Origin: Chrysochromulina tobinii
Taxonomy: Eukaryota > Haptophyta > Prymnesiales > Chrysochromulinaceae
DNA length: 58,709 bases
NCBI GenBank assembly: GCA_001275005.1
Contig: JWZX01003229.1
Span: forward strand, 1-58,709
Direction: 5' to 3'
In this document: positions 1-43,550 of the stretch, piece after piece
Numbering within the stretch: the stretch's first letter is position 1
How the letters are laid out: each line of letters starts with the position of its first letter
The notes under the pieces: model-generated
Seen by the model: the letters and a program-made list of their open reading frames with translations, nothing else
Told to the model about the DNA's origin: nothing
The model's database searches: none
Translations under genes and position numbers: made by a program

Positions 1-1
1 G

Positions 2-20132: not shown

Positions 20133-21683
20133 TCAGCTGGTTGGATGTTGCAGCATCAGCTGCAGCGCTGCCCCCCTATACCCTGACGCAACTACCTTGC
20201 CATGCAGCTCGGCAACCTCCACCGCCGACAACAGGTTCCCATCGAGATTCAATCTCTCGAGGTGGCAAGCTCCGTCAAAGTCGTCCTCGCAGTCCAGCGT
20301 AAGCACGGCCGCGAGCACCGCCGCCGCTCCGCTGGGGCCGATTTCGTTTCGGTCGAGCCACAGGCGCCGTAGTGAGCGCGCCGTGCGCAAGGGCCGCGCC
20401 AGGGCGGTGGCGCCCTTGTCGCCGATGCTGTTCCCCCCGAGGTACAGCTCGACAAGCGCCATCGTGGGGCTGCCGAGGAGCGCTGCCACGGCAACGGCGC
20501 CGTCGCTGCGCAGATGCATGCGCTCGAATGTGAGGCAGCGCAGAGCGCCGAGGGAGTACGAGGCTGCGCAAGGCTGCTGCTGGCCTCCGGCGCTCGGCAC
20601 GGCGCCCCGGAATAGGCCGTTGCCGCTCGGCACGGCGCTCCGTGAGCTGGCGGCCCAGGGGTCGATCTCGAGTGCGAGATCAAGTGCACCTCCGTGGCTC
20701 TCGAAGGCCCCTGCCGGCCCAGCGCTCAAAGCATTGTCATCAGTGGTCATCAGAGGTCATCAGTGATCATCAGAGGTCATCAGAGGTCATCAGAGGTCAT
20801 CAGAGGTCATCAGTGATCATCAGGGGCACCCACCCAAAGCATTGTCGCTGAGGCACAGCTTGCGCAGCGAGGGCACCTGGCCGAGTAGCGGCTTCACTGC
20901 GAGCCAGCCAGCCGCATCGCAGAGCTGATTACCGCCGAGCGCGAGCGTCGCGAGATGGCTGTGTGAACGGAGAGCATACGCCAAGGTCGAGGCGCCCACG
21001 GGCCCGACAGCATTATGGTCGACGTGGAGCAAGGACAACACCTGGTTTGTGACGAAGCCGTCGGCGAGCGACGCGACCCCAGAGTCACCCAGCCAGTTGC
21101 GAGACAACCTCAGCTCCTCGAGCCGTTGCTTACGTGCAGCGAGGAGCGACGCTAGGGCAGGACCGGCCCTGGCCGTCAGGTTGTTGCTGCTCAAGTCGAG
21201 GGCCACGAGCTGGACGCCCGAGGTGGCGACGATTGCGGCCACCAGCGAATCCACTCCAACGTCACCGGCGCCGACAGCGGCGAGGCACAGCGTTTGCAGC
21301 GTGAGAGGCGCACGGAGCAGCAGCGCCTGAGCGACCGACTTGAGGCCAGCATCACCGAGCGTGCTTGCGCGTAGACGCAACGTCAAGATCGCATTGGACT
21401 GAGGTCGGAACCGACACGCCTGCACGTCAGATGCCGCTTTCGCCTGCGCGTCTGCAATCTCAGTTGAAATGCAAGACTCCAGTTCTCGAGGGCTTAAGTG
21501 CCTGTTAGAGAGATCGATGACCTGATGCACAGCCAACCCGTGCCGGGCGCCGACGCGCACCGCTAGGCGTGCGAGAAGACCGCTGTCGAGCGTCACATTC
21601 GCTGAGGCGCGAGCGGCGTCCGTCATTTTCGGCTTGCCGGAAGGGTCAGGCGACCAACGCCCGGGTGCCTGGAGTCTGTTCAT
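20133..21683 (-). CDS. Leucine-rich repeat protein, ribonuclease-inhibitor type
   Basis: Two exons, 21683-20830 and 20724-20133, 481 residues. At least eight LRRs of the RI/NLRC type (LxxLxLxxNxIgdxGaxxLA) are visible, for example LVALDLSSNNLTARAGPALA, LEELRLSRNWLGDSGVASLA and LVELYLGGNSIGDKGATALA. No other domain, signal or membrane segment appears, so it is probably a cytosolic protein-interaction scaffold. The start is the ATG at 21683. An apparent upstream start is GTG. The intron is phase 2 (GG|GTGCCC ... TTTGAG|C) and interrupts the repeat array. A promoter-like module shared with other genes lies 38-87 bp upstream. Confidence 0.85.
20725..20829 (-). repeat. LRR-gene intron made of nine decamer repeats
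   Basis: 105-nt intron, nearly all of it nine tandem 10-nt units starting at 20738 (sense forms CTGATGACCT, CTGATGACCA, CTGATGATCA). GACAATGCTTTG occurs just before the donor and again at the intron's 3' end, where it supplies the acceptor AG. Confidence 0.9.
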
Positions 21684-21720
21684 GTTAATACACACAACAC
21701 GTACACAGGAGACGTGTGTG

Positions 21721-21770
21721 TGTGAACGTTAACACGACAGACGCGACAACCGGTGCTACGGCACTGTTAC
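21721..21770 (-). promoter_or_regulatory. Shared upstream module, copy A
   Basis: A 50-nt block (sense start GTAACAGTGCCGTAGCACCG, sense end GTTAACGTTCACA) just upstream of the LRR gene start. It differs from copy B at 36461-36510 by only two bases. It may be a core promoter or a short mobile element. Confidence 0.75.
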
Positions 21771-22285
21771 TGTGTGTGTGAAACCTGGTGTGCGTTGAAA
21801 GGTTCCTGCCGGTGTGATTGCTCATATAAGAAAGATGAAAGTCTAGAGAAAGAAGGGGCCGGCGCGATCGCCGTGAACAGCAACAGTTTCGAGTTTGTTT
21901 GCACCGCAAAGCAGCAGCAGCAGCTCACAGGGCACCGTCCCCATCACCGCTCAAAACGCGTGCCTCTCCTCTCTATAACCAACGCAGTCGGGCCAGCTCT
22001 ACATGCAATTCGGTATGGACATGATACGAATTACGATATGACATGCTCCATTGCTGCCCCCGACACAGCTCGCACCCATTGCGCTCGCCGTTCGCGTCTT
22101 GCGTCTAGAGCTCTCTCTACACAAAGAATATCCGTCCGGCACCGGCGACGCCCAACACGGAGCTCCCCAAACCTCGTCGATGGTTCTACAATGGCGCCGT
22201 TTCGATGCGCCTTCCAACGTGTCACACGCCCTTGGCACCGTGCGTCACCAACCGAACGCGGCCACATTTGGCAACCGGAACCAGG
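21771..22285. other. Intergenic
   Basis: About 515 bp between the LRR promoter side and the stop of the SET gene. No gene is seen. The 3' UTR of the SET gene is expected here. Confidence 0.4.
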
Positions 22286-25200
22286 TTAGGCCACTGGGCC
22301 CTCCCCCGGTCCCCATGGCACCCATCGGACGCGGCACACCTCCTTGTTTCGGTTCGCGCTCTCGAGCTTCTTGCGTTGTGCCTCCTTGCGCATCTTCTCG
22401 AAAGGTTTATCCGAGCCGTAGTTGTAAAAGATCTCTTCGCCGCAGCGGATAGTACGTGTGGCAAAGAGGATGGCGCGCATCGGGGCCAGGTCGCAGAGCG
22501 CCTTGTTCACCCCTTGGCGCTTCCGAAACTCGAGGCGCGAGTTGTACCGTTTCGGATCCCGGGGGTCATTCGCCATCGAGGCGGCACCCTCATGCCACTC
22601 GGGAGCCTCTTCTGGGGGGAAGTACCTGATGAGGGAGGCCATCAGAGCGCCATCAGAGGCACACAGGCGCAACTACGCCCCCTCCGCCCCCAAGCGCCTG
22701 GGCTGTGATGAGGGAGGCAATCAGCATGCCATCAGAGGCGAGAAGGCAAGTACCGTCCCCAAGCGCCTGGGTTGTGCGGGTTGTTGCGGATGGCGTCGGC
22801 GTAGGGCTTGCCATCGATCAGCGCTCCGCCCGAGTTCGGGATGCGCAACACGTACCTGAAGGGGGGTCCGCGATCAGCGCTCATCAGCGCCCATCCGAGA
22901 CCATCCGTGGTCATCAGCGCTCATCAGTGGCCATCAGTGACCATCCGTGGTCATCAGCGCTCATCAGTGGCCATCAGCGTACGAGGTGTCGAGGTCATCA
23001 GAGGTCATCAGTGGCCATCAGCGTACGAGGTGTCGAGGTCATCCTCCTCGATCTGCTCACGGTAGAGGATGGGGCCTGCGTAGGAGGTGATCCGCTCCCC
23101 CAGAGTGAACTCACGACCCGCGTACAGCCCCAGACCCGCCTGTGGGCCTAGACTCGAAGGCATCACGAACACGGCGCGGTCCATCAGTGTACCCGCCACC
23201 TCATCCTCCTGCATGGGCAGCAGCGTCGAGAGCTGCGCGTCCTGCGCGCCGAGAGGAGCCAAGAGCGAGCCATCAGTGATCAATCAATGTGCAATCAGCG
23301 AGCCATCAGTGATCAATCAGTGATCAATCAATGTGCAATCAGTGTGCCATCTCAGAGAAACATCAGAGGGTGCATCAGAGGGTGCATCAGAGGGTTCATC
23401 AGCGGGTGCGAATCAGACCTGCTCGGCGACGAGCTTGGCACGGCGCGATGCGCGCGCTGCTGCGAGCAGCTTCGAGTCAAGTGCGTCATCCGCTGCTTCG
23501 TCCGAAAAGGTGCGCTGCGCCACTTGCTTGCCTCCCCGCTCGCAACGCAAGCACAGCGAAGGCTTGTTGTTGCCACTCTCCCACGCCGCTCGCGCGCGGT
23601 GCTTGCATCCCTTGTGGAACCACTTGGCGCAGCTCTCGCATTGGCGAGCTCCACCGTCGGTGCCTCCGCCGCCCCCGGCGCCCCCGGCGGCGCCCCCGGC
23701 GGCAGCAGCGGCGGCGGCGGCGGCGGCGGCGGCAGGTAAAGGGGCGGCAGCGGCGCTGCTGCTGCTGCTGCTGCTGCTGCTGAGTCCCCTCTTGTTGCCA
23801 GCCTTGGGGGCTGCGCCGTCGTGGGCGCTGCTGCTGAGTCCCCTCTTGTTGCCAGCCTTGGGGGCTGCGCCGTCGGCATCGGCGCCCACGATGGCGCCCT
23901 TGGGCCCACTGCTGCCGCTCCTCTCGAGGTCGCCGTTACATGGGCACGACCATTCGCGCTTGATCAGCTTGTTCGGGTGATTCGCGCACCTGCATGCAAT
24001 GAGGGAGGCCATCAGCATGCAATGAGGGAGGCCATCAGCATGCAATGAGGGAGGCCATCAGCATGCAATGAGGGAGGCCATCAGCATGCAATGAGGGAGG
24101 CCATCAGCATGCAATGGGAGAGGCCATCAGCATGCAATGAGGGAGGCCATCAGCATGCAATGAGGGAGGCCATCAGCATGCAATGAGGGAGGCGATCAGC
24201 ATGCAATGAGGGAGGCGATCAGCATGCAATGAGGGAGGCCATCAGCATGCAATGAGGGAGGCCATCCGCATGCAATGAGGGAGGCCATCAGCATGCAATG
24301 AGGGAGGCGATCCGCTTGTTGGGGGGCGTCGCGCACGCACCGTTTGCCGTGCACGGTGGCGCTGCTCTCGTCCTCAAACGCGCGGCTGCAGAAGCGGCAA
24401 CTCCACACGAACCGTCCAGCATCCGAATGGTAGCCTTGCTCCTGCAGCCGCTTGGACTCGCACTGGATGCACATGTAGAGACGCTTGTCGCGCATGCGCA
24501 CGAGGTCGTCCCGGCCGTAATCGAGCCGCTCGCAGCGCGCGTGGAACCATCGGTCACAGGCCGCACACGGCAAGGCGAAGTAGTTGCCCGACAGGTGGCC
24601 CGCGCACACGCATCCCCACGAGGTGAGGCCGCGCGCCGTGTTGAGCTTCTCGAGCTTCTCCGACTCGCGCGAGGCCATCACCTGGTTCGCGGCGCGGTCG
24701 TCTCGTCCCTTAGGAAGGAAGTCGCGCAGCAGCATGAGCTGGCGTGACACCTTGAGAGGGAGTGCCGCCGCGGCGACGGATGTCGCCCCGCCGAGAGCGC
24801 ACACGCCGCTGCTGAGCGCCAGCCCCGCGGCGGCGGCGGCCGATTTGCCGCCGCCGCCGCATGCGGTGGCGGTGATCGCGGCCGCGGCGGCGAGACCTTC
24901 AGGGCCGAGGCCCTCCGCTGCCCCCGGGAAGACGTCGTCCACGGCAGCCATGGGCGCCCCCGGGAGTGGTTTCGTCACTTGAGTGACGACACCACAATGA
25001 CGAAACCCGTCCACGTCGTCCACCGCTGCCGTGAGCGCCCACCCTGGCGCACCGATGCCGCCTCCGACCGAGACAGCCACCGATGCGCCCGAGACGGCGC
25101 TGCTCCTTGCCTCGAGCTGCGTGCTCGCGCCGAGCTCGCTCGGCAGATCGTTGCTCGTCATCAGGCGCACCTGATGAGGGAGGCAATCATGGGTCATCCG

Positions 25201-25469
25201 TGGTCATCCGTGGTCATCAGTGGTCATCAGAGGCCATCAGAGCTTCTCGAGGCGCACCTCTGAATCATCAGCCTCGTCCTCGGGCGCGAGTGACGAAGCC
25301 GACGAGATCCCGGCCGACGCACCGCACGCTTCCATATTAGGGAGCACGTGGATCTCATCAGCTGCCAGATTAGGCGTCGTGGTCGACGCACCGCACACCG
25401 CACTGCTAGAGCCGCTGCCATTGCCGGCGGCCGCCTCTGCCTCCGCCTCCGCCTCCGCCTTCGCATCCT

Positions 25470-25503
<34 letters not shown>

Positions 25504-26667
25504 TACCGCCGCGCCAGCGAGGTCAAACCCAAATCCAGAGGGGATGGCGCTGTCCCGGGCGCCCCGAGAGGACATGGCGCTGTCCCGGGCGAGGTCAAAC
25601 CCGAATCCGCTGAGCCCGCAGAGGCTCGCGCCGTACTGGGCACCGAGGCTCGCCCCGCCGTTGAGGCTGCCCAGTACGGCGCCACCTCGGCCGAGCTCCG
25701 CACCGCCGGCATGCATCATCTCGCCCCCGAGCTCGCATCTCGTCCCCGAGCTCAGGCTCATCTCGCCCTCGAGATCGCATGGGTCGCATCCCGTGAGCAC
25801 CCCCGCGCCCCGCGGCCAGAACTCGTCCCTAATATGGAAATCGCCCTCGTCGCTCATCGGGAGCGGCATGCGCCCATCGAGCCGCTCGGCCTCTTCCATA
25901 TTAGGGAGCGGCACGCGCCCATCGAGCCGCTCGCCCGCCGTCGACGCGTTGCTGCTCGCGCCAGAGCCGCTCGCGCCGCCGCCGCCGCCGCCGCCACAGC
26001 CGCCGCCGCCGCCGCCGCTGCCCAGGCCGTGTTGGCTCTGGGCTAGAGCTTGGGCGAGCATGTGCTGCTCGTCGAGCAGGGCGGCGAGCGTCCAGTCGGG
26101 CTCGCCGTGCGAGCGAGTGCCGCTGCGTCCGCCCACGCGGTGCACCGCCTCCATCGCTTCAGGCTTCACACGTGGCATCCGTGGCTGCTTGGGCCGGCTC
26201 GCCGCTGCGGCCGCCTTGGGCGGCTTGGGCGGCTTGGGCGGCTTGGGCGGCTTGGGTGGCTTGGGCGGCTGGGGCGGCTGGGGCGCCGGTGCGGTCGCCT
26301 CTGAGCTTGTGTCGGAGCTCGAGGGCATGTCGGCGCCCTCGGTGTCGGCGCCGCCGGCCATCGTGGCCTCGTGCTCCGCCGCCGGTGGCCGGCTGGCCTT
26401 GGCCTTGGGCTGCAGGCCGGCCTTCAAGCGTGCCTGCTCAGCTAGCTTACGCGGATTGTCCGCGGGTGCGGCCTCGTAGACACGAGGCCGCTTGCGCTCA
26501 CGTCCGCCTGCGGCGGCAGCCTCCGCCGGCTTGCACAGGCCCGAGTGCAACCGGAAGAGCTGGCAGCCCCACAGGCCGCAGACATCGGGAAAGCCGTCGG
26601 CGCGCAGAGGAATGCCCGGGTGTGTGATGGCGTAATTCGCCGGTGCTTCTAGAACCTCGCCCTCCAT
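22286..26667 (-). CDS. PHD-finger / SET-domain protein (putative histone lysine methyltransferase)
   Basis: Six exons: 26667-25258, 25170-24341, 23989-23419, 23241-23027, 22855-22754, 22625-22286; 1,155 residues. All joins keep frame. Domains: disordered Pro/Ala/Gly-rich N-terminus (with a PPK repeat); PHD-like finger ~654-704 (WGCVCAG...CAACDRWFH..C...CIQC); a C2H2-type finger ~723-750 split by intron 2; second Cys/His finger ~862-895 (CESCAKWFHKGC...CLRC); SET domain ~955-1130 beginning GLGLYAGREFTLGERITSYAG and ending ILFATRTIRCGEEIFYNYG. The usual NHSCxPN cofactor motif is replaced by SMANDPRDPKRYNSR, a change seen in some algal and protist SET proteins. Likely nuclear chromatin modifier. 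The ATG at 26667 is confirmed on sequence. Confidence 0.88.
22626..22753 (-). repeat. SET-gene intron 5 (128 nt)
   Basis: CG|GTACTT to CATCAG|GTACTT, phase 2. It carries CTGATG units and two copies of the GCCTCCCTCATCA cassette. It also holds an altered copy of the upstream exon end (CCCAGGCGCTTGGGG). Confidence 0.9.
22856..23026 (-). repeat. SET-gene intron 4 (171 nt)
   Basis: TC|GTACGC to TTCAG|GTACGT, phase 2. Decamers CTGATGGCCA and CTGATGAGCG fill it. The donor region CGACACCTCGTACGCTGATG is repeated inside the intron, giving a second potential donor. Confidence 0.9.
23242..23418 (-). repeat. SET-gene intron 3 (177 nt)
   Basis: CAG|GTCTGA to GCGCAG|GAC, phase 0. It contains CTCTGATGCACC repeats and two copies of a TTGATCACTGATGGCTCGCT block. 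Two other in-phase CAGs lie a few codons downstream, so the exact acceptor is less certain. Confidence 0.7.
23990..24340 (-). repeat. SET-gene intron 2: 14 copies of a 23-nt repeat
   Basis: 351 nt, CG|GTGCGT to GCATGCAG|GTGCGC, phase 2. Positions 23993-24314 are 14 head-to-tail copies of a 23-nt unit (plus-strand core CATGCAATGAGGGAGGCCAT) with few substitutions. The splice joins GKRC to ANHPNKL within a zinc finger. Confidence 0.93.
25171..25257 (-). repeat. SET-gene intron 1 (87 nt)
   Basis: GAG|GTGCGCCT to CATCAG|GTGCGCCT, phase 0. The same AGGTGCGCCT lies at both junctions. Inside are CTGATG/CGGATG decamers and the GATTGCCTCCCTCATCAG cassette. Confidence 0.92.
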
Positions 26668-26798
26668 GGAAGCAGACGAACCTTTTCGGCGCGAAGCGGC
26701 GGAGCGGCTTCTTGGGCGCGCGTGCTCGATGTCATTTCATCGTGGAGCTTCTACAATCTACCTAGAACAATTGACATTCGGAACCCGGATCGAGCTGC

Positions 26799-29316
26799 AT
26801 GCATTGCCCAAGTTTTATCCACTGCCCTGAAAGCACTCACCTAGACCGTCTTTCAACATTTCATCCTGAACGACGCATGACCACCCTTTTTGCTACTCGT
26901 ACTGACTTGATGACCCGCCGGAATATCCTGCCATTCGCACCCAACGTGACCTTGCGCAACACGCGCTGGCCTGAGACGACGCCGTGGGAGCAGATCTGCT
27001 CCGAGCGACGGGCAATGCCCAGCAGCAACTTCGCCGGTGGCAGCAGTCGGCAACGGCATCACGAGACGAAGCTGCTTCGGTTGTTGGCATCCGGCGCTCC
27101 GCTCGTGGACGGCGAGCATGCGGTCCTCGCCTTTGCCGACCGGCTCAGGCGCGACCTAGGCGCGCGCGGCGTGCTGTGCGATGGAGCACAGCCGTGTGCC
27201 GTGAGCGTGCACACGGACGGCGACAACGGCAATGTGACGGCCGAGATCTGCTTGCCGCGGCTCTCGAGCGCGGCCCGGCGCGCCGTGCTTTGCGAGCCAT
27301 ACGGCGAAATGTGGCAGCAGCTCGGTGGCGAGGTGGACCTCTTCGACGGCCGCCGCTCGCGCTATAAGGCCGGCTGGAAGGGCGACAAGCAATTCACAGG
27401 CGACCTCACCGGAGCTTTCGACCGCCCAGCGTGCGCGAGCTTCGAGCTGCGCCGACTCGCGCGCTGGTGGACGGCGCTGCGCACGATGACGCCTTTTGTG
27501 AACGCGAGCCAGCTTCAGCGCGGCCCCAGGGCCAACGGCAAGCTCTCGACCGGCTGGCCTCTGCGCGGGAAGCAATCGAAGGGCGCAGCCGCCTCTGCCG
27601 AGAAGCAAAGCAGTGACCAGGCGAGGAGCTCTGCGAGGAGCTCTGCGAGGAGCCCTCGAGCATGGGATTGGATGGGATTGCAGATTGGATGGGATTGCAT
27701 CTCATTTTGCAGACTGGATGGGATTGCAGATTGGATGGGATTGCATCTCATTTTGCAGAGCCCTCGTCCCATCGAGCTCGCCGCTGATGGGCGCTGATGG
27801 GCACTGATGGGCAACGGGCGCTGATGACGATGGATTGCCGTTGATGTGAGCGCTGAGTGTGACCCCCACTCTCTATCAGGCGAGAGCCCGTGAGTTTGCA
27901 CAGTGGCTCCGCTCCGACTCGCCCTCGGCAGTGCGCGCGCGCGCGTACGGGCCCCAACACTTCCGAACGTGCGCGGTCGTCGGCAGCGGCCATGACCTGC
28001 GCTGCGGCGTGCCGCGAGGAGCGGAGATCGACTCTCACGACGCCGTCTTTCGGAGCAATGCGGCACAGCACGGAGAGGCCATGGGTGGATTCGATTCGGC
28101 GCAGGCGCGCGCGCTGCGCAGGCAGCGGCTGCCCGAGAGCCAGGCAAGGGCACCCACTGATGCCCCCTGATTGCCCCCGAGTGCCTCCATGATTACGAAT
28201 AAATTACGACTTAATTACGACTGCTGACCGCTGAATGCGGCTGCCGGAGAGGCTGGCAGGCGGGCCGGCGCACCACGTTCCGGGTCAGCTGCCTCTACAA
28301 CGGGCGCGTCGAGCAACCCCGTGACGAACCTGACGAACTTGACGAACCTGAGCGAAAGTCCGTGCGAGAGTCGAAGGTGGATCATGACGAACCTGAGCGA
28401 GAGTCGAAGGTGTATCATCGGCAGTTGAAGCCCAACAGACGGCTTGCACCTGGCACCCCACAGCCATCTTCACAGCCATCTTCACGGCCATCAACGGCCA
28501 TCAATAGCAATGAGCTCGGGCCGAACAGAAAGCAAGGGGCTGGGGTGGACGCATCATCTCACGAGGGAGCGCCAGGGACGGTGTCAGGGGCGGCGTCAGG
28601 GGCAGCGTCGGGGGCGGCGTCAGGGGCGGCGTGGTCCGAGCAGTGCATTGTGCCGCGGCCGTGGTTTGAACAGCGATGGGGGCGTGAGGCCATGAGCAAC
28701 ACGCGCCACGTGTGCTGCGACCACACGCAGCTCCGCTCGTCCTACGACCTGAGCTCCCTCCAGGTGATGGCCGTTGATTGCCGTTGATTGCCGTTGATGA
28801 CGACCATACGCAGCTCCGCTCGTCCTACGACCTGAGCTCCCTCCAGGTGATGGCCGTTGATTGCCGTTGATTGCCGTTGATTGCATGCAGGCGCTCGAGC
28901 GGGAGCGGTCTGCGCGCCATTGATTGCCGTTGATTGCCGTTGATTGCATGCAGGCGCTCGAGCGGGAGCAATCTGCGCGCTTCCTCTTCTTCCTGGGCGC
29001 CGTGTCGGGCGACGAGTCCATCGACGCGATGCTCGCCGGCTCCGGTGGCAATGCACTCCACGCCGCCCTCAGCCTGTGCGCCGCCGTCGATGTGTACGGT
29101 AGCGGGCTGCACAGCCGCGGCGTCGGCCACGACAAGATCTATGCGCATGCGTACGACGAGCGCGTCGGCCATTGCCTCGTGCCAGGCTCGCGCCCTTACC
29201 GTTTCGGGAAGCTCAAGGGCATCCTCGGGTTCGTCAAATGGCGCAAGGACCGCGTCCGTACCGAGATGCTGCTGCACGTGCTGCATGCGCTCGGCGTCGT
29301 GCGCTGGGTGCAGTGA
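26799..29316 (+). CDS. Sialyltransferase-like glycosyltransferase (GT29 family)
   Basis: Four exons: 26799-27620, 27880-28143, 28260-28763, 28954-29316; 650 residues if the ATG at 26799 is used (the next ATG is at 26877). The L-sialylmotif reads CAVVGSGHDLRCGVPRGAEI then DSHDAVFRSN (~305-335), followed across intron 2 by GRRTTFRVSCLY. The S-motif is GGNALHAALSLCAAVDVYGS (~561-580), with a VS-like HDKIYAHAYDE behind it. GT29 enzymes transfer sialic-acid-type sugars from CMP donors in the Golgi. Oddly, no signal anchor is visible in the ~270-residue N-terminal region, and the 131 bp to the divergent SET gene leave little room for an upstream exon. The sugar transferred in an alga may be Kdo or a related acid rather than sialic acid. 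Two introns use GC donors. Confidence 0.82.
27621..27879 (+). repeat. Sialyltransferase intron 1 (259 nt, GC-AG)
   Basis: CAG|GCGAGG to TATCAG|GCGAGA, phase 0: CAGGCGAG lies at both junctions. Inside are GAGGAGCTCTGC triplets, a duplicated GATTGGATGGGATTGC block, and CTGATGGGCG/CTGATGGGCA decamers. Confidence 0.85.
28144..28259 (+). other. Sialyltransferase intron 2 (116 nt, GC-AG)
   Basis: CAG|GCAAGG to GGCAG|GCGGGC, phase 0. It joins the L-motif exon to GRRTTFRVS, which matches the conserved G-x-x-TT block after the L-motif. It contains CTGATGCC, TGATTGCC and ATTACGAC repeats. Confidence 0.85.
28764..28953 (+). repeat. Sialyltransferase intron 3 with copies of both flanking exon ends
   Basis: CCAG|GTGATG to GCATGCAG|GCGCTC, phase 0, 190 nt. 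Inside it are a ~45-nt near copy of the upstream exon end (ending CTGAGCTCCCTCCAG|GTGATGG), three GATTGCCGTT tracts, and a copy of the acceptor plus the first ~25 nt of the next exon. Using that inner acceptor would give a stop after ten codons, so the last one is the working site. Confidence 0.88.
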
Positions 29317-29667
29317 AGGCCTCAGGTGTGACGTGCGAGGCCCCAGCTGAGGGCGAGGCGGAGTATACCTCGCGTAGGCGGAGGGGTGCGCTGAAGATGC
29401 GGGGAATGGATGCATTCATTCATTGATCTTCGACGGAATACATAGTATGAAATACCGTTCTCCAATTGCATTCTCCAATCACGTCAGCGGGATGCATGCG
29501 CATGAGGCTTGATCGAGGGTTGTGTTGAGCGAGAGTGGGATGTGGGTGGCTGCGTCTACTCGACTTGACTTGACTCCTGTTCACACCCAAATTTGCATCC
29601 GCCCAAGACAGCGCGTGTTGGCATTGGTGTGGAGGCTCTCTCCTCTCGTCGCTCCGCCCGAGACGCG
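29317..29667. other. Intergenic between two plus-strand genes
   Basis: 351 bp with the sialyltransferase 3' flank and the promoter of the next gene. No motif or gene is recognised. Confidence 0.4.
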
Positions 29668-30261: not shown

Positions 30262-30662
30262 AGTCCAGCATCCTATCACGCGAGCCCGTAGACCTTGCGT
30301 CGGCTGTGCACACACCTTAGGCGCTTAGGCCGGGGGGCCCGCGCGACCCCCACGACTCCTTGCATGTAGGCACACACAGGACACACTGTGAGCCCCGCCG
30401 GCCAGGAGCGAAGGCACAGATAGAGCGGGGGTCATACTCTAATTAGTTTTTGCAGCAATCGATCCTAAGAACATGCACGGGCTCTGTCGCACGCGCCGGG
30501 TTGTGATCACAGCGCCTCTTCCTCGCGCTCGCCTATCTACGCGAGAGTGACGCCGCACAAGCACCCATACACGATACAGTAGTCAGCGGCAGTGCAGAGC
30601 GAGGCCAAAGCCCAAAGTTACCCAAAGTGGTCGAGTGTCGTGTCGTGTTGTGAGATTCGTCA
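30262..30662. other. Convergent 3' region
   Basis: 401 bp between the stops of the small protein (+) and threonine ammonia-lyase (minus). No gene or repeat stands out. Confidence 0.4.
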
Positions 30663-32123
30663 TTACGATTGTGGGGCTGGGGCTGGCGGTGCTTTTAGAG
30701 CTTCGAGTACTTCTTTTTCGTCCTTGGTTTCGTTAATGCCGTCCAATTTGGCCGTTTCGTACCCCAGCCCGCGGAGGTGGCGGATGAGTTGTCGGTTGTG
30801 ATCGAAGCCCCGCGTCTCGAGGACCGCCTTGATCACTACCATGTCCACCGATGTGTGCAGCCACGCTCGCTCATGGAAGATGTCCTTCACACTCGCCCCC
30901 ATGCCGGCGATCGCCTTGGCGAGCTCGGCGATGCCGCCCGGCCGGTCGCTCACAGGTACGGTGAGCCGGATGAGGCGGCCGTCCGCCGCGAGGCCCCTCT
31001 CGATCACACGCCCCAGCACCGTGACATCGATGTTACCGCCGCACAGTGGAACAAGAACCTTTTTATCCTGGAGGTCCGAACGATCGAGGGCAGACGGCAC
31101 TCAGAGGGCACTCAGAGGGCACTCAGAAGGCTCTCGGCAGATGGCACTCGAATAGCACTCAGATGGCACTCCGAGGGCACTCCGATGGCACGCCGAGGGC
31201 ACTCAAATGGCCCTCACCTTCAGGTCCAAACGGTCGAGAGGACCTCCAGGGAGCATCGCCGCAAGACCGGCCGCGCCTCCTCCCTCGACGACCATCTTCT
31301 CGCCCTCGAGCAGCCGCAGCACGGCCAGGGCCACGGCCGCCTCGTCCACCGTCACTATCTCGTCCACCCAATGGCGTGCTACGGCGAAGGCATGTGCACC
31401 GACCTGTGGAACTGCCAAACCATCGGCGAGTGTCGGCATCACTGCCACGGGAACAGGATGGCCAGCCTCGAGCGCCGCGCTGTACGAGGCACAGCGCTTG
31501 GGCTCGACGCCGATCACCCGCAGCCCCGGCTGCATCGTCTTCATCGCGAGCGCGATGCCCGCGATGAGCCCTCCGCCGCCCACAGGCACAACGACAGCGT
31601 CGCAGTCGGGTACCTGCTCGAGCATCTCCATGCCAAGCGTGCCGGTGCCCGCGATGATCTCGGGATCGTCGTAACCATTGATGTAGCGCAGGTCGCCGTA
31701 CACCTCGAGCGCGTGCTGCTTCGACTCGCCAATGTGCGCACCGTGAATGACAACGTTCGCTCCAAAGAGCCGGCACTTGTCGACCTTGGCCATCGGCGCC
31801 ACAGTCGGCATCACGACCGTCACCGGGATGCCGAGCTGCACGCCGTGCCACGTGAGCGCAAGCGCATGGTTGCCCGCCGACGCCGCCACCACGCCACGCC
31901 GCCGAGCCTCGCCATCCAGGCTGAGCAGGGCGTTCCTTGCACCCCTTTCCTTGAAGGAGCCCGTGAACTGCTGCTGCTCCAGCTTGAAGTGCACATGCGA
32001 CCCGGTGATCTCCGAGAGCCAGTGCGAGCGCTGGCAGCTGGTGCGCACGATCCCACCTCGAATGCGGTGCATCGCCGCCGCGACGTGCTCGAAGCGCACA
32101 CAGTCATAGGACGGCAGCTTCAT
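30663..32123 (-). CDS. Threonine ammonia-lyase (threonine dehydratase) with ACT domain
   Basis: PLP enzyme converting threonine to 2-oxobutanoate and ammonia, the entry to isoleucine synthesis or threonine breakdown. Two exons, 32123-31218 and 31067-30663, 436 residues. The PLP lysine is Lys58 in TGSFKERGARNALL. SAGNHALALTWHG and the phosphate-binding loop PVGGGGLIAGIA are present, and exon 2 opens with VLVPLCGGNIDVTVLGRVIE, the end of the fold-type II domain. A C-terminal ACT domain (RLTVPVSDRPGGIAELAKAI) follows, with the layout of the short bacterial-type catabolic/anabolic enzyme. ACT domains usually give allosteric control by amino acids. ATG at 32123. No clear transit peptide is visible, so a cytosolic location is likely. 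The intron is phase 0 (AAG|GTGAGG...CCAG|GAT). Confidence 0.94.
31068..31217 (-). repeat. Threonine ammonia-lyase intron (150 nt)
   Basis: The sense strand carries repeats of CTCTGAGTGCC / CGGAGTGCCATC. The last ~21 nt before the acceptor (CTCGATCGTTCGGACCTCCAG, split here as CTCGATCGTT and CGGACCTCCAG) mirror the end of exon 1 (CTCGACCGTT, TGGACCTGAAG) with four changes. Confidence 0.9.
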
Positions 32124-36604: not shown

Positions 36605-39166
36605 ATGACCACCGCCGCTCACCTCCTGCAGCCGGACACGCTCTCGGAGATCCTCGGCCTGCTGCCGACGACCTCGGTCCTAGCGTGCGGCTGCGTCTCA
36701 GCCGCGTTCCGTGTTCTGGTTGACGAGTATTTGCGCCGCTCCAAGCGGCTCGACCTCGCCGGCTCGGAGGTGACGCCACGTCATCTACGCTCCCTCGCTC
36801 TCATTCGCATGCGTGGCGGCGCACAGGCCATGAACCTGTCTGGGTGCAGGCGCTTGAATAAACAGTCCATCGTTCAGGCCGTGCGCGATAGCTGCTCGCT
36901 GGCCGAGCTGATCGCTTGCGACGTGGGCGTGGGCAGCTGGACGTTGCCAGCGCTGCTCGCACTGACTGCCGCGTCGCCGGCCAAGTTGCGCGTCGGTGGC
37001 AACATCCGCATCGACTGCCGCCTTGCCCTCAACCACGATGTGGTGCCGGGTTCCGCGCTGCTGCTTTTGCTGAGTGCACTGCCGGCCCTTGAGGTCCGGC
37101 GGCTTGTGCTCATCAACGATCGCGTCAACGATCGCGGCGCTATGCCGGCTGGCGCAGCCGCTGCGATGCTCGGAGCGGCGATGCTCGGCGTGGCGGCTCC
37201 GGCGGCTGTGGTGCTCACGGAGGCAGGCCCGGGTCAAGCTGATGCCGCGGCGCCCGTCGAGCTGGGCGGCGGCGTCGAGCTGGGCGGCGGCGTCGAGCTG
37301 GGCGGCGGCGTCGAGCTGGGCGGCGCAGCGGAGGGCAGCGCAGCGATTCCGGCGGAGGGTAACGCGGCGGGGGAGGCCGAGGCCGCGGGGGAGGAGGAGG
37401 CCGAGGAGGCCGAGGCGGCGGCGGAGGAGGAGGAGGCCGAGGCGGCGGCGGAGGAGGAGGAGGCCGGGGCGGAGGGGGAGGAGGAGGCCGAGGCGGCGGT
37501 CGACGAGTCACGGCTCCTCTACGATGCGCTCGCCACGGCGCTTGCCGCGTCGCGTAGCCTCGAGGAGCTTGATGCATCGTCGGGCGCCCTCGGTGTGATT
37601 GGAGTGCTGCAGCTCGTCGTCCCGCTGCTTGAGTCGGAAGCTTGCGTGCTCCGTCGGCTCGCGTGCAGGTGATGGCTCCTGATGAGCTCTGATGAGCTCT
37701 GATGAGCTCTGATGAGCACTGATGGCTCCTGATGAGCCTCTGATGAGATATGATTGCATCTGATAGCCATATGAGTGCGCTCGGAGTGCAATCTGAATGC
37801 CATCTGAATGCATCCATGTGGTCCGTGCGTTCGGCTGCAGTGCACTGCCGCGCGCAGCCATCCCCAGCCTGACCGCGAGCTTGAGCCTCAACCGCACCCT
37901 ACGCACCCTCAAGCTTGGTATGAACTGCCTCGATGTGGGTGCGGCGCGGCTTCTCGCTCGGGCGATTGAGCGACATGCAGCCCTCACCTGCCTCACGCTC
38001 GAACATAATCAGGTGATTGCATGCATCGTCAGGCGCTGATCCTTGATGGCCACTCTGTTTGCCTCCTCCCTGGGCCACTGAGACGCGCCCCTTCGCCCCC
38101 TTTGCCTCTTTTGCCTCTCGACTTGACTTGACTTGGCTTGCCTCTCAGACACTCGACAGTGGTGCGGCCGCGCTCGGCGCGACCCTTGTGACCAACCAGC
38201 TGCGGACGCTCAGTGTGGCATTCACGGGCGCCGCCGATGGCGCGTGTGAGGCGCTCGCGCTCGCCATCGCCCTCCGCCGCCCCCTCGCGGACCTGTGCCT
38301 GTGCGGTAACGGCGTCGGGCCGAGCGGCGTCGGGGCGCTCAGTACGGCGCTCGAGGCCGCGGGCTGTGAAGGTTGTCTGACGGCGCTCAACCTGAGCGCC
38401 AACCAGCGGTTGGACGTGTCGAGCGTGCGTGCGATCGCTCGGGCGCTGCCGTGCACTCGGCTGGTTGAGCTACAGCTGGCTGGGGTGAGTGCCTCTGATG
38501 AGAGTCATTCGATTGCCATCCGAGTGCCATTGAGTGCCACTGAGTGCCTCTTAGTGCCACTGAGCGCCACTGAGCGCCACTGAGCGCCACTGATTGTAAC
38601 CGGATTTCCTCTCTTATTGCCTGCTAGATTGCCTCTCCGATCGCCTCCCTAATGGTATTGCCTGCTAGATTGCCTCTCCGATCGCCTCCCTCATCAGGTG
38701 CATGGGATGAGCGCCCACGCGTGCCCTCATTGCATGCTGATTGCCTCCCTCATCAGGTGCATGGGATGAGCGCCCACGCGTGCCCTCATTGCATGCTGAT
38801 TGCCTCCCTCATCAGGTGCATGGGATGAGCGCCCACGCGTGCGGAGTCCTCGCGGCCGCTCTGCCCGGCTGCCCCACCCTCGAGCGCCTCGATCTGTCGA
38901 TGAATCCGTTCGGGGACATGGGCGCATGGGGGCTCGCCTGGGCACTGCCTGAGTGCTCCAGATTGCGCGAGCTCGATCTCTCGAGCTGCGAGGTGGGCGA
39001 CGACGGCGCAGACGAGCTGCTCGAGGCACTGGACGCCAATACGACGCTCGCCACGCTCGACTTGCGGGGCAACAAGATCCATCCCAAGCACGTGCTCGGC
39101 AGGGACGTGGCGCGTGTTCGACTCGAGTTCCAACGGCCGGTTCTGTCGTCCGTGTTCGCGGTGTAG
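36605..39166 (+). CDS. F-box-like / leucine-rich repeat protein
   Basis: Four exons: 36605-37668, 37841-38012, 38149-38484, 38816-39166; 640 residues. The start (LLQPDTLSEILGLLPTTSVL then ACGCVSAAFRVLVDEY) fits an F-box, which would tie it to an SCF ubiquitin ligase through Skp1. It is followed by an irregular LRR region, an insert with four copies of VELGGG and a Glu/Ala tract (~240-300), then RI-type LRRs (LRTLKLGMNCLDVGAARLLA, LERLDLSMNPFGDMGAWGLA, LRELDLSSCEVGDDGADELL). No membrane segment. Splices are phase 2, 0 and 0, each joining one LRR smoothly to the next. ATG at 36605, directly downstream of shared module copy B. Confidence 0.82.
37669..37840 (+). repeat. F-box/LRR intron 1 (172 nt)
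   Basis: TGCAG|GTGATG to GGCTGCAG|TGC, phase 2. Decamers CTGATGAGCT/CTGATGGCTC are repeated about six times at the 5' side, then ATCTGAATGCC-type units. TGCAG lies at both ends. Confidence 0.9.
38013..38148 (+). other. F-box/LRR intron 2 (136 nt)
   Basis: CAG|GTGATT to CTCTCAG|ACACTC, phase 0. It has a few CTGAT/TTGATGGCC units, TTGCCTCTTTTGCCTCT, and an ACTTGACTTGACTTGGCTTG tract before the acceptor. Confidence 0.9.
38485..38815 (+). repeat. F-box/LRR intron 3 with triplicated acceptor
   Basis: GGG|GTGAGT to CATCAG|GTGCATGGG, phase 0, 331 nt. The 5' half is GCCACTGAGC decamers. The 3' half holds three copies of TTGCCTCCCTCATCAG followed by the first ~30 nt of exon 4 (GTGCATGGGATGAGCGCCCA). 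Only the third continues into the LRR frame. Confidence 0.92.
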
Positions 39167-39656
39167 CTGTAGGGGTGACGTCGAGCTTGCTGTGCATGGA
39201 TTGCAGCGTGAAACTGCTCATAAACCACAGTTAGTGACGACCCCGAGCAGCACACGACACACTCATACGTCAAGCGCCCCGTGAGCCAAGGCCCCATGCA
39301 AGGCCCGCAAGTGAGCCCCGCCGCTCCACGTCGGACTACTCCTCGGATGATGGCCCGTCCGCGCATTTCGAGCGCGCACACGCGCACGTGCAGGACGCAG
39401 TGCACCCACGCTCCAGAGACCTCCATGCTGGTGCCTTTGGTGATCACACCGATTGAGGAGTGACATGTGCTGTGGCACCTGTGGGTTCGGCTTCATGCCG
39501 ATCGGCTGCATGTGGGCTGGAGCTCAGGGTAACCTCTGGGTGCGTCACGTGTGCCTTCTTGAATCGCGATCGGTGCAATCGCGACGACCGCGGCGGTCTA
39601 GAACGCAAAACGGGTAACCTGACTCGGCTGCGACCGCAGCCCTCTGCTGGCTACCG
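39167..39656. other. Convergent 3' region
   Basis: 490 bp between the stops of the F-box/LRR gene (+) and the next minus gene. Nothing recognised. Confidence 0.45.
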
Positions 39657-41246
39657 CTAGCCGTTGCAATTCAGCGGCGAGCCCCAGCCAGTGCCTTCAG
39701 CTCGGCACCTGCAAGGCAAGGAGGCGTCATAGCCATGGAAGTAGAGCCCTGCCGAATGCACTGGATCGAAGCAGCCATTGACCTGGTTGTGTATGTCTCG
39801 GAGGTTGACGATCTCAAAGACCTTGGTGCCTCCCGATCCGGTATTCGGCTCAAACGTACTGGGCAGCTGGATGCTGTCGAAGCCGCGGGTACGAAAGCAA
39901 TTGAGCACTTGGAAATGGTCGCCCTGGCAGTTGTGCGCCGATCTCAGATTCTGAAACGCATTATCGTTGGAGATGAGGGAGCGGCCGACGTTGAAGAAGA
40001 TGCCACTGCCCGGGACCATATAATGCCACAGCCCTTGCGAAAGGCCGCGTTCCTGCCAGTCGCAGCAAGTGTGCGTCACTTCCACTGCCGAGTAGCTCGG
40101 AACGCCGCGGACCATGACGGTCTGCTTTGTGCGATCCGATTCTGCGTTGACTTGACGGAAGCTGCGCCAGACATCTCCATATTGCAGCGGATACGCTCCC
40201 GGCTTGTACTGGCCGTACGAGTAGTGGTTGGGATCGCACAGCCTCGGTACCAGATGGTCGCCGTCCGTGCACACGAGGGGGAGCCGCACTGGCAGGCTCC
40301 GTCCATGGAAGTTGGCGAGGTAGCCCAGCGAGAATGGGTACTGCATGGTCGTGATACCGTAGAGCGCATCGATGTAATGAAACCAAGGCGAGCTCCTGAG
40401 TATGCTCTCGTTGCCAAAGGTATCAGCCACGCTCGTGTACCACCCATTCTCGTACAGATGGCAGTGCCACCATGCGCGGTACTTTGTGATCGGTGTGGGC
40501 ATCCGGTCGTAGGTGGGCGTATGGCGGTTGAGGCCGCATGCCTCGTCGCTCGGACGGAAGGAGCCGGGCGACGATGGCGGCGGAGGCTGCCTCGGCGGCG
40601 GCGGTGGAGGTGGAGGAGTAGGTGGCGATACTGGCAATGGTGGCGGCAGTGGTACAGGTGGTGGCAGTGGCGACGATGGCAAAGGCGGCAAAAATGGCAA
40701 GGGTGGCGACGGTGGCCACAGTGGCAAGGGTGATGATTCTGGCGACGGCGGAGGGAGCTGGGGCGACGACGTTTGTGTTGGCCACGACGCCACAGAGACA
40801 AGTGGCACACGCGGCCTCAGCTGCCCCGAAATGCTGCTTGAGCCAGCCGCGGCACTGAGCACCAAGACAACGACGCATACAAGTAGTGCGCAGGACCAAC
40901 GGAGGCGTTTCGAGGGGGCCGTGGTGTCTGGTGGCGAGGAAGACAAAGCCTTTCCAGGGGACGGCGCAGGCATGGGGGGTGCATGGAATCCACCTATGGA
41001 GATGTCCACGACTTGTGATGACAATCCATCTGGCTGATCATCTGAACTCGCTAGCCGACGGAACTTGCGAGCCGTACGCGCAATCCTGAGCTCACTTAGC
41101 TTGAGAGCCGGACGCGCGATCCTCAGGCGCATTCTCTTGCCCATTACACCATGGTAGAGTCCTGCCTCACTTTTCGGTCCGTCTCCTTGGGCTTCGCGAC
41201 TGATCTCCATGATGCCGATCCTACCTGCACCTGAGACGGCGTCCAT
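39657..41246 (-). CDS. Type II membrane protein with proline-rich stalk, unknown lumenal domain
   Basis: 529 residues, ATG at 41246. A basic cytosolic head (~1-117) precedes one hydrophobic anchor (~118-137; WSCALLVCVVVLVLSAAAG), a Pro/Ser/Leu stalk (~160-235, with runs of PP and PPP) and a ~290-residue Cys-containing lumenal domain (HTPTYDRMPTPITKYRAWWH at its start). The architecture is that of a Golgi type II enzyme or a surface protein, but I recognise no catalytic motif. It has the same plan as sulfotransferase 1 and the partial gene at 58007. Intronless. Confidence 0.75.
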   Translation of the reverse strand: MDAVSGAGRIGIMEISREAQGDGPKSEAGLYHGVMGKRMRLRIARPALKLSELRIARTARKFRRLASSDDQPDGLSSQVVDISIGGFHAPPMPAPSPGKALSSSPPDTTAPSKRLRWSCALLVCVVVLVLSAAAGSSSISGQLRPRVPLVSVASWPTQTSSPQLPPPSPESSPLPLWPPSPPLPFLPPLPSSPLPPPVPLPPPLPVSPPTPPPPPPPPRQPPPPSSPGSFRPSDEACGLNRHTPTYDRMPTPITKYRAWWHCHLYENGWYTSVADTFGNESILRSSPWFHYIDALYGITTMQYPFSLGYLANFHGRSLPVRLPLVCTDGDHLVPRLCDPNHYSYGQYKPGAYPLQYGDVWRSFRQVNAESDRTKQTVMVRGVPSYSAVEVTHTCCDWQERGLSQGLWHYMVPGSGIFFNVGRSLISNDNAFQNLRSAHNCQGDHFQVLNCFRTRGFDSIQLPSTFEPNTGSGGTKVFEIVNLRDIHNQVNGCFDPVHSAGLYFHGYDASLPCRCRAEGTGWGSPLNCNG

Positions 41247-41908
41247 GCACGGTTCACAGGACTGCAGGCTCTCAACATCCGGAAGATAAGAATCTCCCCA
41301 AAGTAGATTGCTTTCGGAACTTTACCTCAGTTGCATGCATACGCAGTTCGGGAACGAGCAGCGAATTAGGTTCGAGTTCCGGGACGTGTCAGTCGGGTAG
41401 TTACGAGTTAGTTCCTCATGTAGGTACCGTACATGACTGTACCACTTCCGTCCCAGCTCGCGTTCGAAATCATCGTACTCAACAGCCACCGTCCCTCAGA
41501 TCTCCGGTTTCATGTTGGTCTCATGCGTGGATGATGTGTCGCCCTGCTGCTCCTCATCCTCCTGATAAGCGCATTCGATTCATTATCGATTCAACGACAT
41601 GGCCTTTGCGCTTCTTGGCTTTGCGGTGCGACCGGAGCGCAGCCGCGCACGATCCACGATGCGCTTCTGGGGGCTGGCCGCGTGGGCCCTTCCCAAGACT
41701 CTCGAACTGCGTGGATCCCTCCGGCTCGAGAGCCTCCTGTCAGTCAGTCAGTTTCTTCGCGGTCCCCGCGCGCCTCTATAGGATTATTTCTCTCATCGAA
41801 TTCTAAAGACTAAACGAACGTACATCGGTCATGACATCGGTACTCTAACCGTACCTCCGTATCCTAAGAGTAGTTTCCATATTCCACTGACTCGCTAGTC
41901 GCTATTGG
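41247..41908. other. Intergenic
   Basis: 662 bp between two minus-strand genes. GGTTCGAGTTCC at ~41370 resembles a tRNA T-loop but no cloverleaf forms around it. No gene seen. Confidence 0.45.
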
Positions 41909-43550
41909 CTATAGCCAGCCGCCCTCAAGGGCAAGCACGCCGTCCGCGAGGGGGCGCAGCAGCAGCCGCTCTCCGGCGAGCATCAGCGCGCCGAAGCCGA
42001 CAGAGAGTGGGATCGCCGGCTCGAGAGATCGAAGCGGCCAGCGCAACGCCACGTGGACCATGAGCAGCCCGAGACCGCAGAGAAGCCCAATGGCTACGGC
42101 GGCGAGGGGTGCGGCGCCGAGACGGGCGGCGTGGCCTGCGAACACCGAGAAGACGATGAAGTCGCCCAGTCCGAGGAGGAGGTCGTCCTGAGCACCAGCG
42201 ACACACACGAGACCCGACCATCAGTGGCCATCCGTGGCCATCCGTGGCCATCCGTGGCCATCCGTGGCCATCAGAGCTATGCCTTAGCAGAGCTGCACTA
42301 ATGAGGGAGGCAATCAGCATGCAATCAGTGGCCATCAGAGCTATACCTTAGCACCAACATTATCAAACGAGAGCCCGGGCATCTGCTCGACGCCAGCCTT
42401 CTGTCGCGCGGCGTAGAGTTTGTCGATGGTCTGGACGGGCGAGCAGTAATGCGAGGCCATGAGAGGCCATTAGTGGCCATCAGTGGCCATGAGTGGCCAT
42501 CAGTGGCCATGAGTGGCCATCAGTGGCCATGAGTGGCCATGAGTGGCCATCAGTGCCAAGCAGTGGCCATCAGTGGCCATCAGTGGCCATCATCAGTGGC
42601 CATCAGAGGCCTACCTGGACGGGGGAGCAGCACGGGAGGCCGACGAGGAGGATGTCGAGCGCAGCGAGCAGCCCGATGATCGCGATCATCATTTGGTACG
42701 GTATGCACGTGAGTACCCACGCAAAGAGGATCTGCGCAGGCGAGGCCAAGGGACGAGGCGCCGTTCTGAGCACTTGCATGCGAGCTCCTCCTCACGCTCG
42801 ACACAAGGTTGTCTGCGATCCGAGTGCATGCAAGTGCTCAGCACGGCGGGAGCGCACCGCGAGGCTGTCAGCGTATACGATCCGAGTGCGCTGAAACCGT
42901 CGGCGCGTCGGAGCCCATTGGGCGAGGAGCACGCCAGGCACGGCGAGATTCCACACGAGAAACGCCGTCGTGGGCGCGTCGAGCGGCACGCCGGCGGCCT
43001 GGGCGGCGCGTAGCAGGAAGAGCGCGAGCGGCACGCCCAAGCCCACTCCCACCCAAAAAGATACGAGCGTGTGCAGCAGCCTCAGCCACGAATGCGTGTA
43101 CAGAAGGGCGTACGCGACGAAGTTGAACAGAAAGAGCGCGCCGACGACTGAGGCGCCGAGCAGTGCGGCGCGTGCCTGCGCGGCGGCCGATTCGCGAATG
43201 TCAAAGGGCGCGGGCAGCGCATCGAAGGCCGGCGGCAGCGCGAGCACGAGCACGACTGTGCCGCCCATAACCAGAGCCATCTCGCGCACCACCGGCCAAG
43301 CGCGCACGAGTGGCGGCCGCGGCAAGCGGAACCGTCGAGGTTTTGCGCGCTGGATCCGCTGGTCCACGCGCTCAAGGTAGCGCGAGAGGCAGTCCGGCGC
43401 CGAGGCCGCCTTCTTCTCACTCCGTGGCTTGCACGTTTCGGAATCTGCCACGAGCGTCACGTCATCGATGCTGACGGGTGAACGAGACGCGCTCTGCTGG
43501 TGCCGGGCAGCGTGCGATGGTGCCCTCTCCAAGCGGAGTGCGTCGGCCAT
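41909..43550 (-). CDS. Presenilin-like GxGD intramembrane aspartyl protease
   Basis: Four exons: 43550-42858, 42731-42615, 42430-42347, 42187-41909; 390 residues. The presenilin hallmarks are LLLGLGDFIVFSVFAGHAA (second catalytic Asp ~307) and EPAIPLSVGFG (PAL-type motif ~357). The earlier helix AIIGLLAALDILLVGL gives the first Asp at ~257. The preceding part (HSWLRLLHTLV...FLVWNLAVPGVLLAQW) aligns with presenilin TM3-TM5, including the W-N before the W of the KGP loop. Presenilin is the catalytic subunit of gamma-secretase and cuts type I membrane stubs. Deviations are Leu in place of Tyr before the first Asp, PAIP for PALP, and only ~50 residues between the two Asp, so no long auto-cleaved loop. 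A signal-peptide-peptidase relative is possible, but GLGDF and the N-terminal half favour presenilin. ATG at 43550 (upstream TTG rejected). Confidence 0.82.
42188..42346 (-). repeat. Presenilin intron 3 (159 nt)
   Basis: GCTAAG|GTATAG to GCTCAG|GAC, phase 0. TGGTGCTMAGG lies at both junctions. It contains CTGATGGCCA/CGGATGGCCA decamers, one TGATTGCCTCCCTCATTAG cassette, and an inner copy of the donor region (GCTAAGGCATAGCTCTGATG). Confidence 0.9.
42431..42614 (-). repeat. Presenilin intron 2 (184 nt)
   Basis: CCAG|GTAGGC to CCAG|ACC, phase 0. Mostly CTGATGGCCA / CTCATGGCCA decamers. CTGCTCSCCCGTCCAG (16 nt) precedes both the donor and the acceptor. Confidence 0.92.
42732..42857 (-). other. 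Presenilin intron 1 (126 nt) with 16-bp inverted repeat
   Basis: GCG|GTGCGC to GCGCAG|ATC, phase 0, chosen because it joins VYADSLA to ILFAWVL at the expected spacing. CTGAGCACTTGCATGC at 42766-42781 is perfectly inverted at 42826-42841, a 16-bp stem with a 44-nt loop. No decamers. Confidence 0.75.

Follow-up and report, generated by a model that had tools for sequence, protein, structure and literature searches.

Probable introner-like introns with tandem-array bodies and flanking exon duplications in the haptophyte Chrysochromulina tobinii

The window analysed here is the whole 58,709-nucleotide stretch of contig JWZX01003229.1 from Chrysochromulina tobinii (contig C2070 of an assembly of 53.15 Mb in 2253 contigs), in which many predicted introns carry tandem arrays, most often of 10-nt units (decamer introns). 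We read these as introner-like introns, made by the duplicative, microhomology-guided insertion of a tandem array. Judged from the sequences, spliceosomal introns were probably gained here as stretches of tandem array inserted into exons and duplicated a piece of the exon at either side.

The window was compared with a random sample of 200 kb (20 stretches of 10 kb, picked by contig number) and with additional loci, in part fetched by array patterns. Genes were called with a Viterbi model that had generic splice signals, a featureless intron state and no knowledge of the decamers, with splice ends restricted to GT/GC-AG; its small coding model was trained on long frames of the window and the 20 sampled stretches. 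This decamer-blind model recovered the 150-nt intron of a threonine dehydratase gene that had been fixed independently from the reading frame.

Flanking duplications and single-copy sites in homologues

Array introns are bounded by two copies of 10-37 bp of exon in 25 cases (median 20 bp). The copies are perfect over 10-25 bp in 11 of these, which suggests recent events. The set consists of 21 cases with an in-register duplication of at least 10 bp and four cases read by hand in loci L001 and L006. In most cases their register matches that of the splice sites, so that predicted splicing returns an uninterrupted reading frame, whereas mismatched pairings of introns, which served as a control, almost never restore the frame in this manner. 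Perfect examples are L034 2787-2850, with GGTACGACCAGGAGCTG on both sides of the insert (17 bp), L015 771-847 (20 bp) and L016 2582-2655 (23 bp), and a near-perfect one is L028 1009-1089 (27/28).

A first test used a score of at least 8 as its threshold, which was reached by 13 of 36 decamer and 4 of 67 other introns, as compared to 1.5% of the mismatched pairings; when shifts from -4 to +4 were permitted, nine of the 11 introns scoring at least 10 did so at shift 0. With strict register and more loci, the 50 decamer introns included 15 with a duplication scoring at least 10 (the random sample contributed 5 of its 14) and the 104 others included four, versus 0.13% of 9187 mismatched pairings and 0.37% of the 2450 pairings among decamer introns. 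The four high-scoring introns in the other class are array-like by eye, namely L034 2787, L003 330 (an array of CTAATGACCT), L015 989 (an 11-mer) and L016 2045 (a TGATGAC heptamer).

The splice sites can be traced to either the target or the insert. We distinguished type A, in which the target provides the 5' splice site and the end of the insert the 3' one, type B, with the reverse arrangement, and type C, with the joint within the duplication. A separate set of 25 introns (score at least 8, lengths 8-28), which overlaps the 25 duplications above, contains 15 of type A, 6 of type B and 4 of type C; outside the pattern-fetched loci, in the random sample and the window, the numbers are 6, 5 and 1 of 12. 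The 3' module CTGATTGCCTCCCTCATCAG is directly followed by GT in 425 of its 643 exact copies genome-wide, where chance (1 in 16) predicts about 40; a search for a longer 3' module, CTGATTGCCTCCCTCATCAGCATGCA, gave no matches. Related introns recur in many copies at unrelated sites, as introners do in the functional sense, and they combine target duplication, a co-opted splice site and a restored frame, strongly so in 15 of the 50 decamer introns. The direct exon repeats at both intron ends, together with microhomology, are also the marks of introns from staggered-break repair.

Most homologous proteins have a single copy of the duplicated segment. The alignments covered 31 asparaginase and 36 threonine dehydratase homologues, each drawn from a listing of 120. 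Of the 31 asparaginase sequences, 29 cross the joint at L010 with a single copy; P0147 stops before it, and P0121 (99% identical) contains copy 1 and then reads into the insert. Likewise, 34 of the 36 cross the threonine dehydratase site with one copy (P0021, P0025 and P0035 with small indels), while P0106 ends before the joint and P0008 (98%) reads into the intron. In a third gene, L006, the homologues are ungapped at residue 350 (9/9) and residue 416 (8/8), and at other sites of this gene some are gapped or poorly aligned. The single-copy site in most homologues examined fits intron gain, and loss in the relatives would be less parsimonious.

In L006 (minus strand, contig C33), three array stretches of one gene are flanked by duplications of 24, 37 and 36 bp, and insertions are nested. 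Segment 832-909 of L006 was considered as an exonic tandem repeat; this was ruled out by homologue P0242, which places 832-909 inside one intron, 591-909. Extra copies of the target were also found within some introns.

Location, strand and predicted splicing of the arrays

A blind search for tracts of period 10 (lag 10) gave 21 tracts, 9 in the window and 12 in the random sample, all of which lie mainly in predicted introns. TGA is in excess on the gene strand in 16 of them, including all 9 from the window; the random sample contributes 7 sense-leaning tracts, 4 ties (L024 3735, L024 5412, L030 2732 and L031 3941) and the only opposite-leaning tract, L024 4352, an array of TGCCACTAAT with TGA 1:0 against the gene strand. 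Pairs of TGAT/TGAG at decamer spacing number 100 sense versus 2 antisense in all intron segments (44.0 kb), 1 sense and 2 antisense in exons (190 kb), and 1 and 0 in intergenic DNA (24.8 kb). For [CT]TGA[TG] pairs spaced by exactly 10 nt the counts are 99 sense, 1 antisense and 1 in an exon. The observation of the sequence-only reading is thereby borne out, the arrays being intronic, mostly sense and nearly absent elsewhere, and frequencies as high on the antisense strand or in intergenic DNA were seen neither for the decamer-spaced pairs nor for the motif clusters described below.

The single motifs give a more mixed picture. CTGATG occurs in window introns at 5.75 per kb sense and 0.68 antisense (exons 0.35 and 0.20, intergenic DNA 0.14 and 0.14), and in the introns of the random sample at 1.93 and 0.84 (exons 0.34 and 0.22, intergenic DNA 0.34 and 0.23). 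The strand bias that had been proposed for both CTGAT and CTGAG holds for CTGATG, whereas for CTGAG it is present in window introns (2.37 versus 1.52 per kb) and lacking in those of the random sample (1.06 versus 1.21). Looser motif clusters in the random sample, the window and the pattern-fetched loci fall in introns in 62 sense and 2 antisense cases, in exons in 3 sense and 3 antisense cases and in intergenic DNA in 3; for the random sample and window only, the counts are 34 intron-sense, 2 intron-antisense, 2 exon-sense, 2 exon-antisense and 3 intergenic. Ten of the 11 clusters that are not sense-intronic are matches with one or two hits, and the eleventh is the array in L001.

The arrays belong to a genome-wide family with the consensus CTGAT[GT][GA]CC[TA]. 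CTGATGACCTCTGATG has 1304 + 1318 copies in the genome, while its reversed word has 1 + 0. Other periods occur as well, but of the 47 introns that carry a tandem array with a period between 7 and 23, most (29) have period 10. The array introns are unevenly spread, with 14 decamer introns in 7 of the 20 sampled stretches, from which we obtain a rough genome estimate of 3,700 (bootstrap 1,300-6,900); they probably number thousands per genome. Two array patterns searched in viral contigs gave no matches.

The array in L001 (1470-1551) is an antisense decamer insertion within a coding exon. The insertion of 57 bp consists of a 25-bp perfect repeat and 32 bp of decamers; since its length is a multiple of three and the antisense unit is stop-free, it is read as 19 extra residues. 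On that strand, the host frame of 959 amino acids scores coding log-odds of 58 and 65 and contains a CysS_C domain by Pfam. This antisense exonic copy suggests that insertion is not bound to strand, and it separates the insertion step from a splicing filter. The copying process that had been suggested from the sequence finds support, while its supposed specificity to introns does not, given this copy and its 25-bp repeats.

The sense bias is best explained by such a splicing filter, since sense units mostly lack GT and AG (164 of 220) while antisense units mostly contain them (10 of 220 are free of both). CAG and AGGT abound in antisense arrays; CAG occurs at 6.7 per kb sense and 52.3 antisense in decamer introns, as compared to 15.8 and 20.2 in other introns. 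Both orientations would then be inserted, and mainly sense copies that form clean introns would survive.

By prediction and homology, the introns conform to the U2 type, with GT-AG ends (imposed by the model), in-frame joining and the usual GUAGUA in the sole U2 small nuclear RNA match of a genome search. Of 50 decamer introns, 35 have a CTGA[TC] at a distance of 10-40 nt from the 3' splice site, versus 4 of 75 others and 0 of 50 reversed sequences, an enrichment that is partly circular because the decamer introns were selected via such motifs. The canonical U2 and the 35 of 50 keep the idea of CTGAT as a branch site (it fits YTNAY) standing, and a branch-site role is a plausible reason why the arrays may splice well. 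The ladders of branch sites and stop codons that had been ascribed to every intron are less general, with YTNAY in 32 and a stop triplet in 38 of the 47 array units.

Array introns of the window

The gene model called 22 introns in the window at 20,711-42,857, among them a 1-bp call and several long gaps of doubtful status. About 12-13 of these are array introns (Table 1), somewhat below the 14-15 of 20 counted earlier by reading frame; the spread over six genes was recovered. The hosts are a leucine-rich repeat (LRR) gene, a SET-domain gene that the model joined to it, a gene at 26.9-29.3 kb without a Pfam match, a threonine dehydratase/serine racemase-like gene, an F-box-like gene (below the Pfam cut-off) and a presenilin gene. 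Among listed homologues that carry an organism name, the nearest is a Prymnesium parvum protein (P0022, 72%), as would suit a haptophyte of the Prymnesiales. Tandem Repeats Finder reports period 10 at 20736-20823, 22873-22979, 25192-25240, 28765-28798, 37670-37747, 38522-38593, 42218-42272 and 42455-42611, and related 11-, 12- and 23-mers at 31091-31216, 23361-23409 and 23992-24312. An Rfam scan of the window gave no match over threshold.

Table 1. Predicted array introns of the window, with their units and flanking repeats.
Intron	Strand	Host gene or domain	Array units	Flanking repeat	Positions of copies	Identity
42431..42614	-	presenilin	decamer, CACTGATGGC-type	16-bp duplication	exon 42615-42630, intron end 42431-42446	15/16
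42188..42346	-	presenilin	decamer, CCACGGATGG + CACTGATGGC	11-bp duplication	42346-42356, 42187-42197	10/11
31068..31217	-	threonine dehydratase/serine racemase-like	11-mer, GAGTGCCCTCT	intron end a diverged copy of exon end	31222-31238, 31072-31088	15/17
25171..25257	-		decamer (type A)	10-bp duplication	25250-25259, 25163-25172	perfect
23990..24340	-		23-mer, GCATGCTGATGGCCTCCCTCATT	diverged duplication, shift 4	24314-24336, 23967-23989	
23242..23418	-		11- and 12-mers incl. CTGATGCACCCT	weak 12-nt flank match		
22856..23026	-	inside SET domain; Pfam match spans joint	decamer	5 nt in register only		
22626..22753	-	inside SET domain	CTGATGGC units + CTGATTGCCTCCCTCATCA	7-nt match	22748-22754, 22620-22626	
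20711..20833	-	LRR gene	decamer, CTGATGACCT	GACAATGCTTTG before intron and near its end, out of register with predicted 3' splice site		
28764..28953	+		decamer, TTGATTGCCG	in-register, at most 4 nt		
37669..37840	+	F-box-like	decamer, CTGATGAGCT	intron end resembles exon end, with indels		
38485..38815	+		decamer, CACTGAGCGC + CACTGAGTGC, then 59-bp repeats			

The Pfam Presenilin match starts exactly at the joint of intron 42188..42346. In intron 38485..38815, the 59-bp repeats carry CTGATTGCCTCCCTCATCAG and copies of the start of the next exon (at 38698, 38757 and 38816). Tandem duplications of exon plus array, which create repeated candidate splice sites, are present at 38680-38842 (59 bp) and at 28718-28881 (83 bp, with starts at 28718 and 28801). 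An inverted repeat, GTTTCGTCA...TGACGAAAC, lies at 24969-25006 in a predicted exon of the SET-domain gene. A dynein heavy chain gene on the minus strand at 1-13504 (Pfam AAA_6 and DHC_N2) contains no decamer tracts, on the same contig that is otherwise rich in them.

Possible origin and relation to known introns

We suggest that a stretch of the genome-wide tandem repeat would enter an exon, with 10-37 bp of exon duplicated on either side. A GT at the start of the duplicated exon, an AG at its end, or both would serve as splice sites, with the insert supplying whichever is missing, and splicing would remove the insert together with one exon copy, thereby restoring the original reading frame. 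Sense arrays, with branch-like sites and few GT or AG, would suit this, while an antisense array may persist as an in-frame coding insertion, of which one case was seen. At the DNA level, we infer staggered-break repair or a template switch, in which an end of the target, such as CTG(A), would anneal to an existing array and copy it; slippage could add units, and the unit periods of 7-23 fit slippage during or after insertion. That the arrays are spliced is likewise a model drawn from the gene predictions.

Microhomology, defined as target bases that continue the array register, could be scored where the register was clear, at 17 of 25 5' junctions and 7 of 25 3' junctions. Its mean is 1.76 nt at the 5' junction versus 0.71 (p 0.0008) and 0.44 (p 5e-5) in two controls, and 1.71 nt at the 3' junction versus 0.68 (p 0.002) and 0.57 (p 0.004); an earlier version of the test gave 1.88 versus 0.60 at 8 junctions (p 0.005). 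The variable duplication length, the microhomology and the array-only inserts together favour repair or template switching over a transposase. A bolder version, to which we give somewhat less than an even chance, is a "spliceable satellite", a decamer that would spread among coding genes via microhomology-templated repair, with neither transposase nor fixed ends. Its sense strand offers hardly any splice sites and most of its unit types have a branch-like site, and for this reason it would make thousands of introns.

Two alternatives dispute only the machinery, and their odds therefore overlap with those of insertion by repair. Target-primed reverse transcription of excised intron RNA by an enzyme of the long interspersed nuclear element (LINE) type, which predicts a fixed 3' CAG and 5' truncation with microhomology, is unlikely, though duplications of variable length and microhomology at the 5' end are compatible with LINE insertion. 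It would account for the prevalence of type A (15 of the 25 typed introns, most ending in TCATCAG) and for the GT that follows most 3' modules, and the CATCAG end of type A leaves reverse transcription of intron RNA a possible source. Yet the nearly equal share of types A and B outside the pattern-fetched loci indicates that a fixed 3' end is no rule, and the array-only inserts show microhomology at the 3' junction as well. Introners of the kind made by non-autonomous DNA transposons, with a transposase, a fixed element and a target duplication of fixed length, share the insertion step and appear rather improbable as the source. Multi-copy introns flanked by duplications with one co-opted splice site are what they would produce, introners of Chrysochromulina sp. 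with 4-bp duplications and no terminal inverted repeats have been reported, and CTGATGA at the array start and TCATCAG at the type A end are mutual inverted repeats. However, duplications of 10-37 bp are not of one fixed short length and, as read by eye, inserts start at several unit phases, some use a CTG that the target provides, and the CATCAG end is missing from types B and C.

Explanations without an inserted array fare worse. Tandem duplication and slippage that act only locally, on exon segments containing AG|GT, would agree with the 59-bp and 83-bp duplications in the window and the extra target copies within introns, but what separates the copies is a member of a single genome-wide family and not local exon sequence, and we hold this explanation to be very unlikely. 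We think equally little of selection, raised in the sequence-only reading, as the sole cause, with ladders of branch sites or stop codons favoured in introns and no dedicated mode of intron gain; it would fit the CTGA[TC] near the 3' splice sites and the scarcity of GT and AG in sense arrays, but leaves the duplications and the common unit sequence unexplained, and YTNAY is missing from 15 and a stop triplet from 9 of the 47 units. An artefact of assembly or gene model is scarcely credible. The introns are predicted, contigs are short and the assembly is possibly mixed, but in three genes homologues align across the joints, the Pfam SET match spans two of them, and the nearly identical proteins P0121 and P0008, from other data sets, enter the same inserts.

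Several observations weigh against the gain of introns by array insertion. Strong in-register duplication marks only 15 of the 50 decamer introns; a score of 6 is reached by 29 of the 50, but also by 12.7% of the decamer controls. According to the abstract of Rogers and Bendich 2025 (PMC11782384), all 213 introns studied there have direct repeats close to their borders (4-30 bp, mean 11.4), which were taken as insertion scars, and short repeats alone are therefore weak evidence. The small, self-trained gene model erred, splitting one intron in two and joining genes, and the introns are predicted rather than RNA-defined, in a small sample (0.2 Mb at random, the window and chosen loci). About half of the loci in the set of 25 duplications were picked via array patterns, and microhomology was tested in two versions on small numbers. 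Proteins alone leave room for intron loss in the relatives, and some of the homologous sequences may themselves have been predicted with splicing. The antisense coding insertion is a single case and thin support, and the near-absence of arrays from the little-sampled intergenic DNA is not explained by a splicing filter alone.

Introns with repeats of 10-11 bp were reportedly described in Emiliania huxleyi by Read and co-workers in 2013; flanking duplications are not known to be part of that account. Introners are known, including those of Chrysochromulina sp. TARA_PON_109_MAG_00232 (Gozashti et al. 2022, PMC9860276). As described there, they resemble the introns studied here in being multi-copy, in their haptophyte host, in target duplication in some families, in a splice site co-opted from the duplication and in an mRNA length that is usually unchanged by splicing. 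The duplications in that account are 3-9 bp in some earlier families and 4 bp in Chrysochromulina, where they carry the 5' splice site, whereas here they are 10-37 bp, the body is a tandem array and both splice-site arrangements occur; the word "tandem" is absent from its main text. Neointrons of Daphnia pulex, inferred to stem from staggered-break repair, likewise repeat the exon end at the far intron end and contain internal repeats in the passages of PMC4202315, but the repeats there are 4-12 bp, while here they are longer and the filler is one genome-wide tandem family. The abstract of PMC11782384 mentions no array body, and the repeats studied here were tested against mismatched pairings and are largely confined to array introns. 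Fill-in at breaks with 3' overhangs is a known route to short target duplications, although the abstract of PMC8355091 mentions neither an inserted array nor introns. Stranded intronic tandem repeats in Daphnia share the strand bias, with no flanking duplications in the passages of PMC3152781. No description of decamer-array introns with such duplications was found in the open-licence main texts searched, and the combination of an array body with long, variable duplications looks new among introners.

The origin of new spliceosomal introns is a long-standing question for which few fresh cases are available. If the gain of introns by array insertion is correct, repair together with a simple repeat, rather than a transposon, can seed introns. 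Repeat DNA that survives in genes where it is cleanly spliced would then suggest a way to watch new introns arise.

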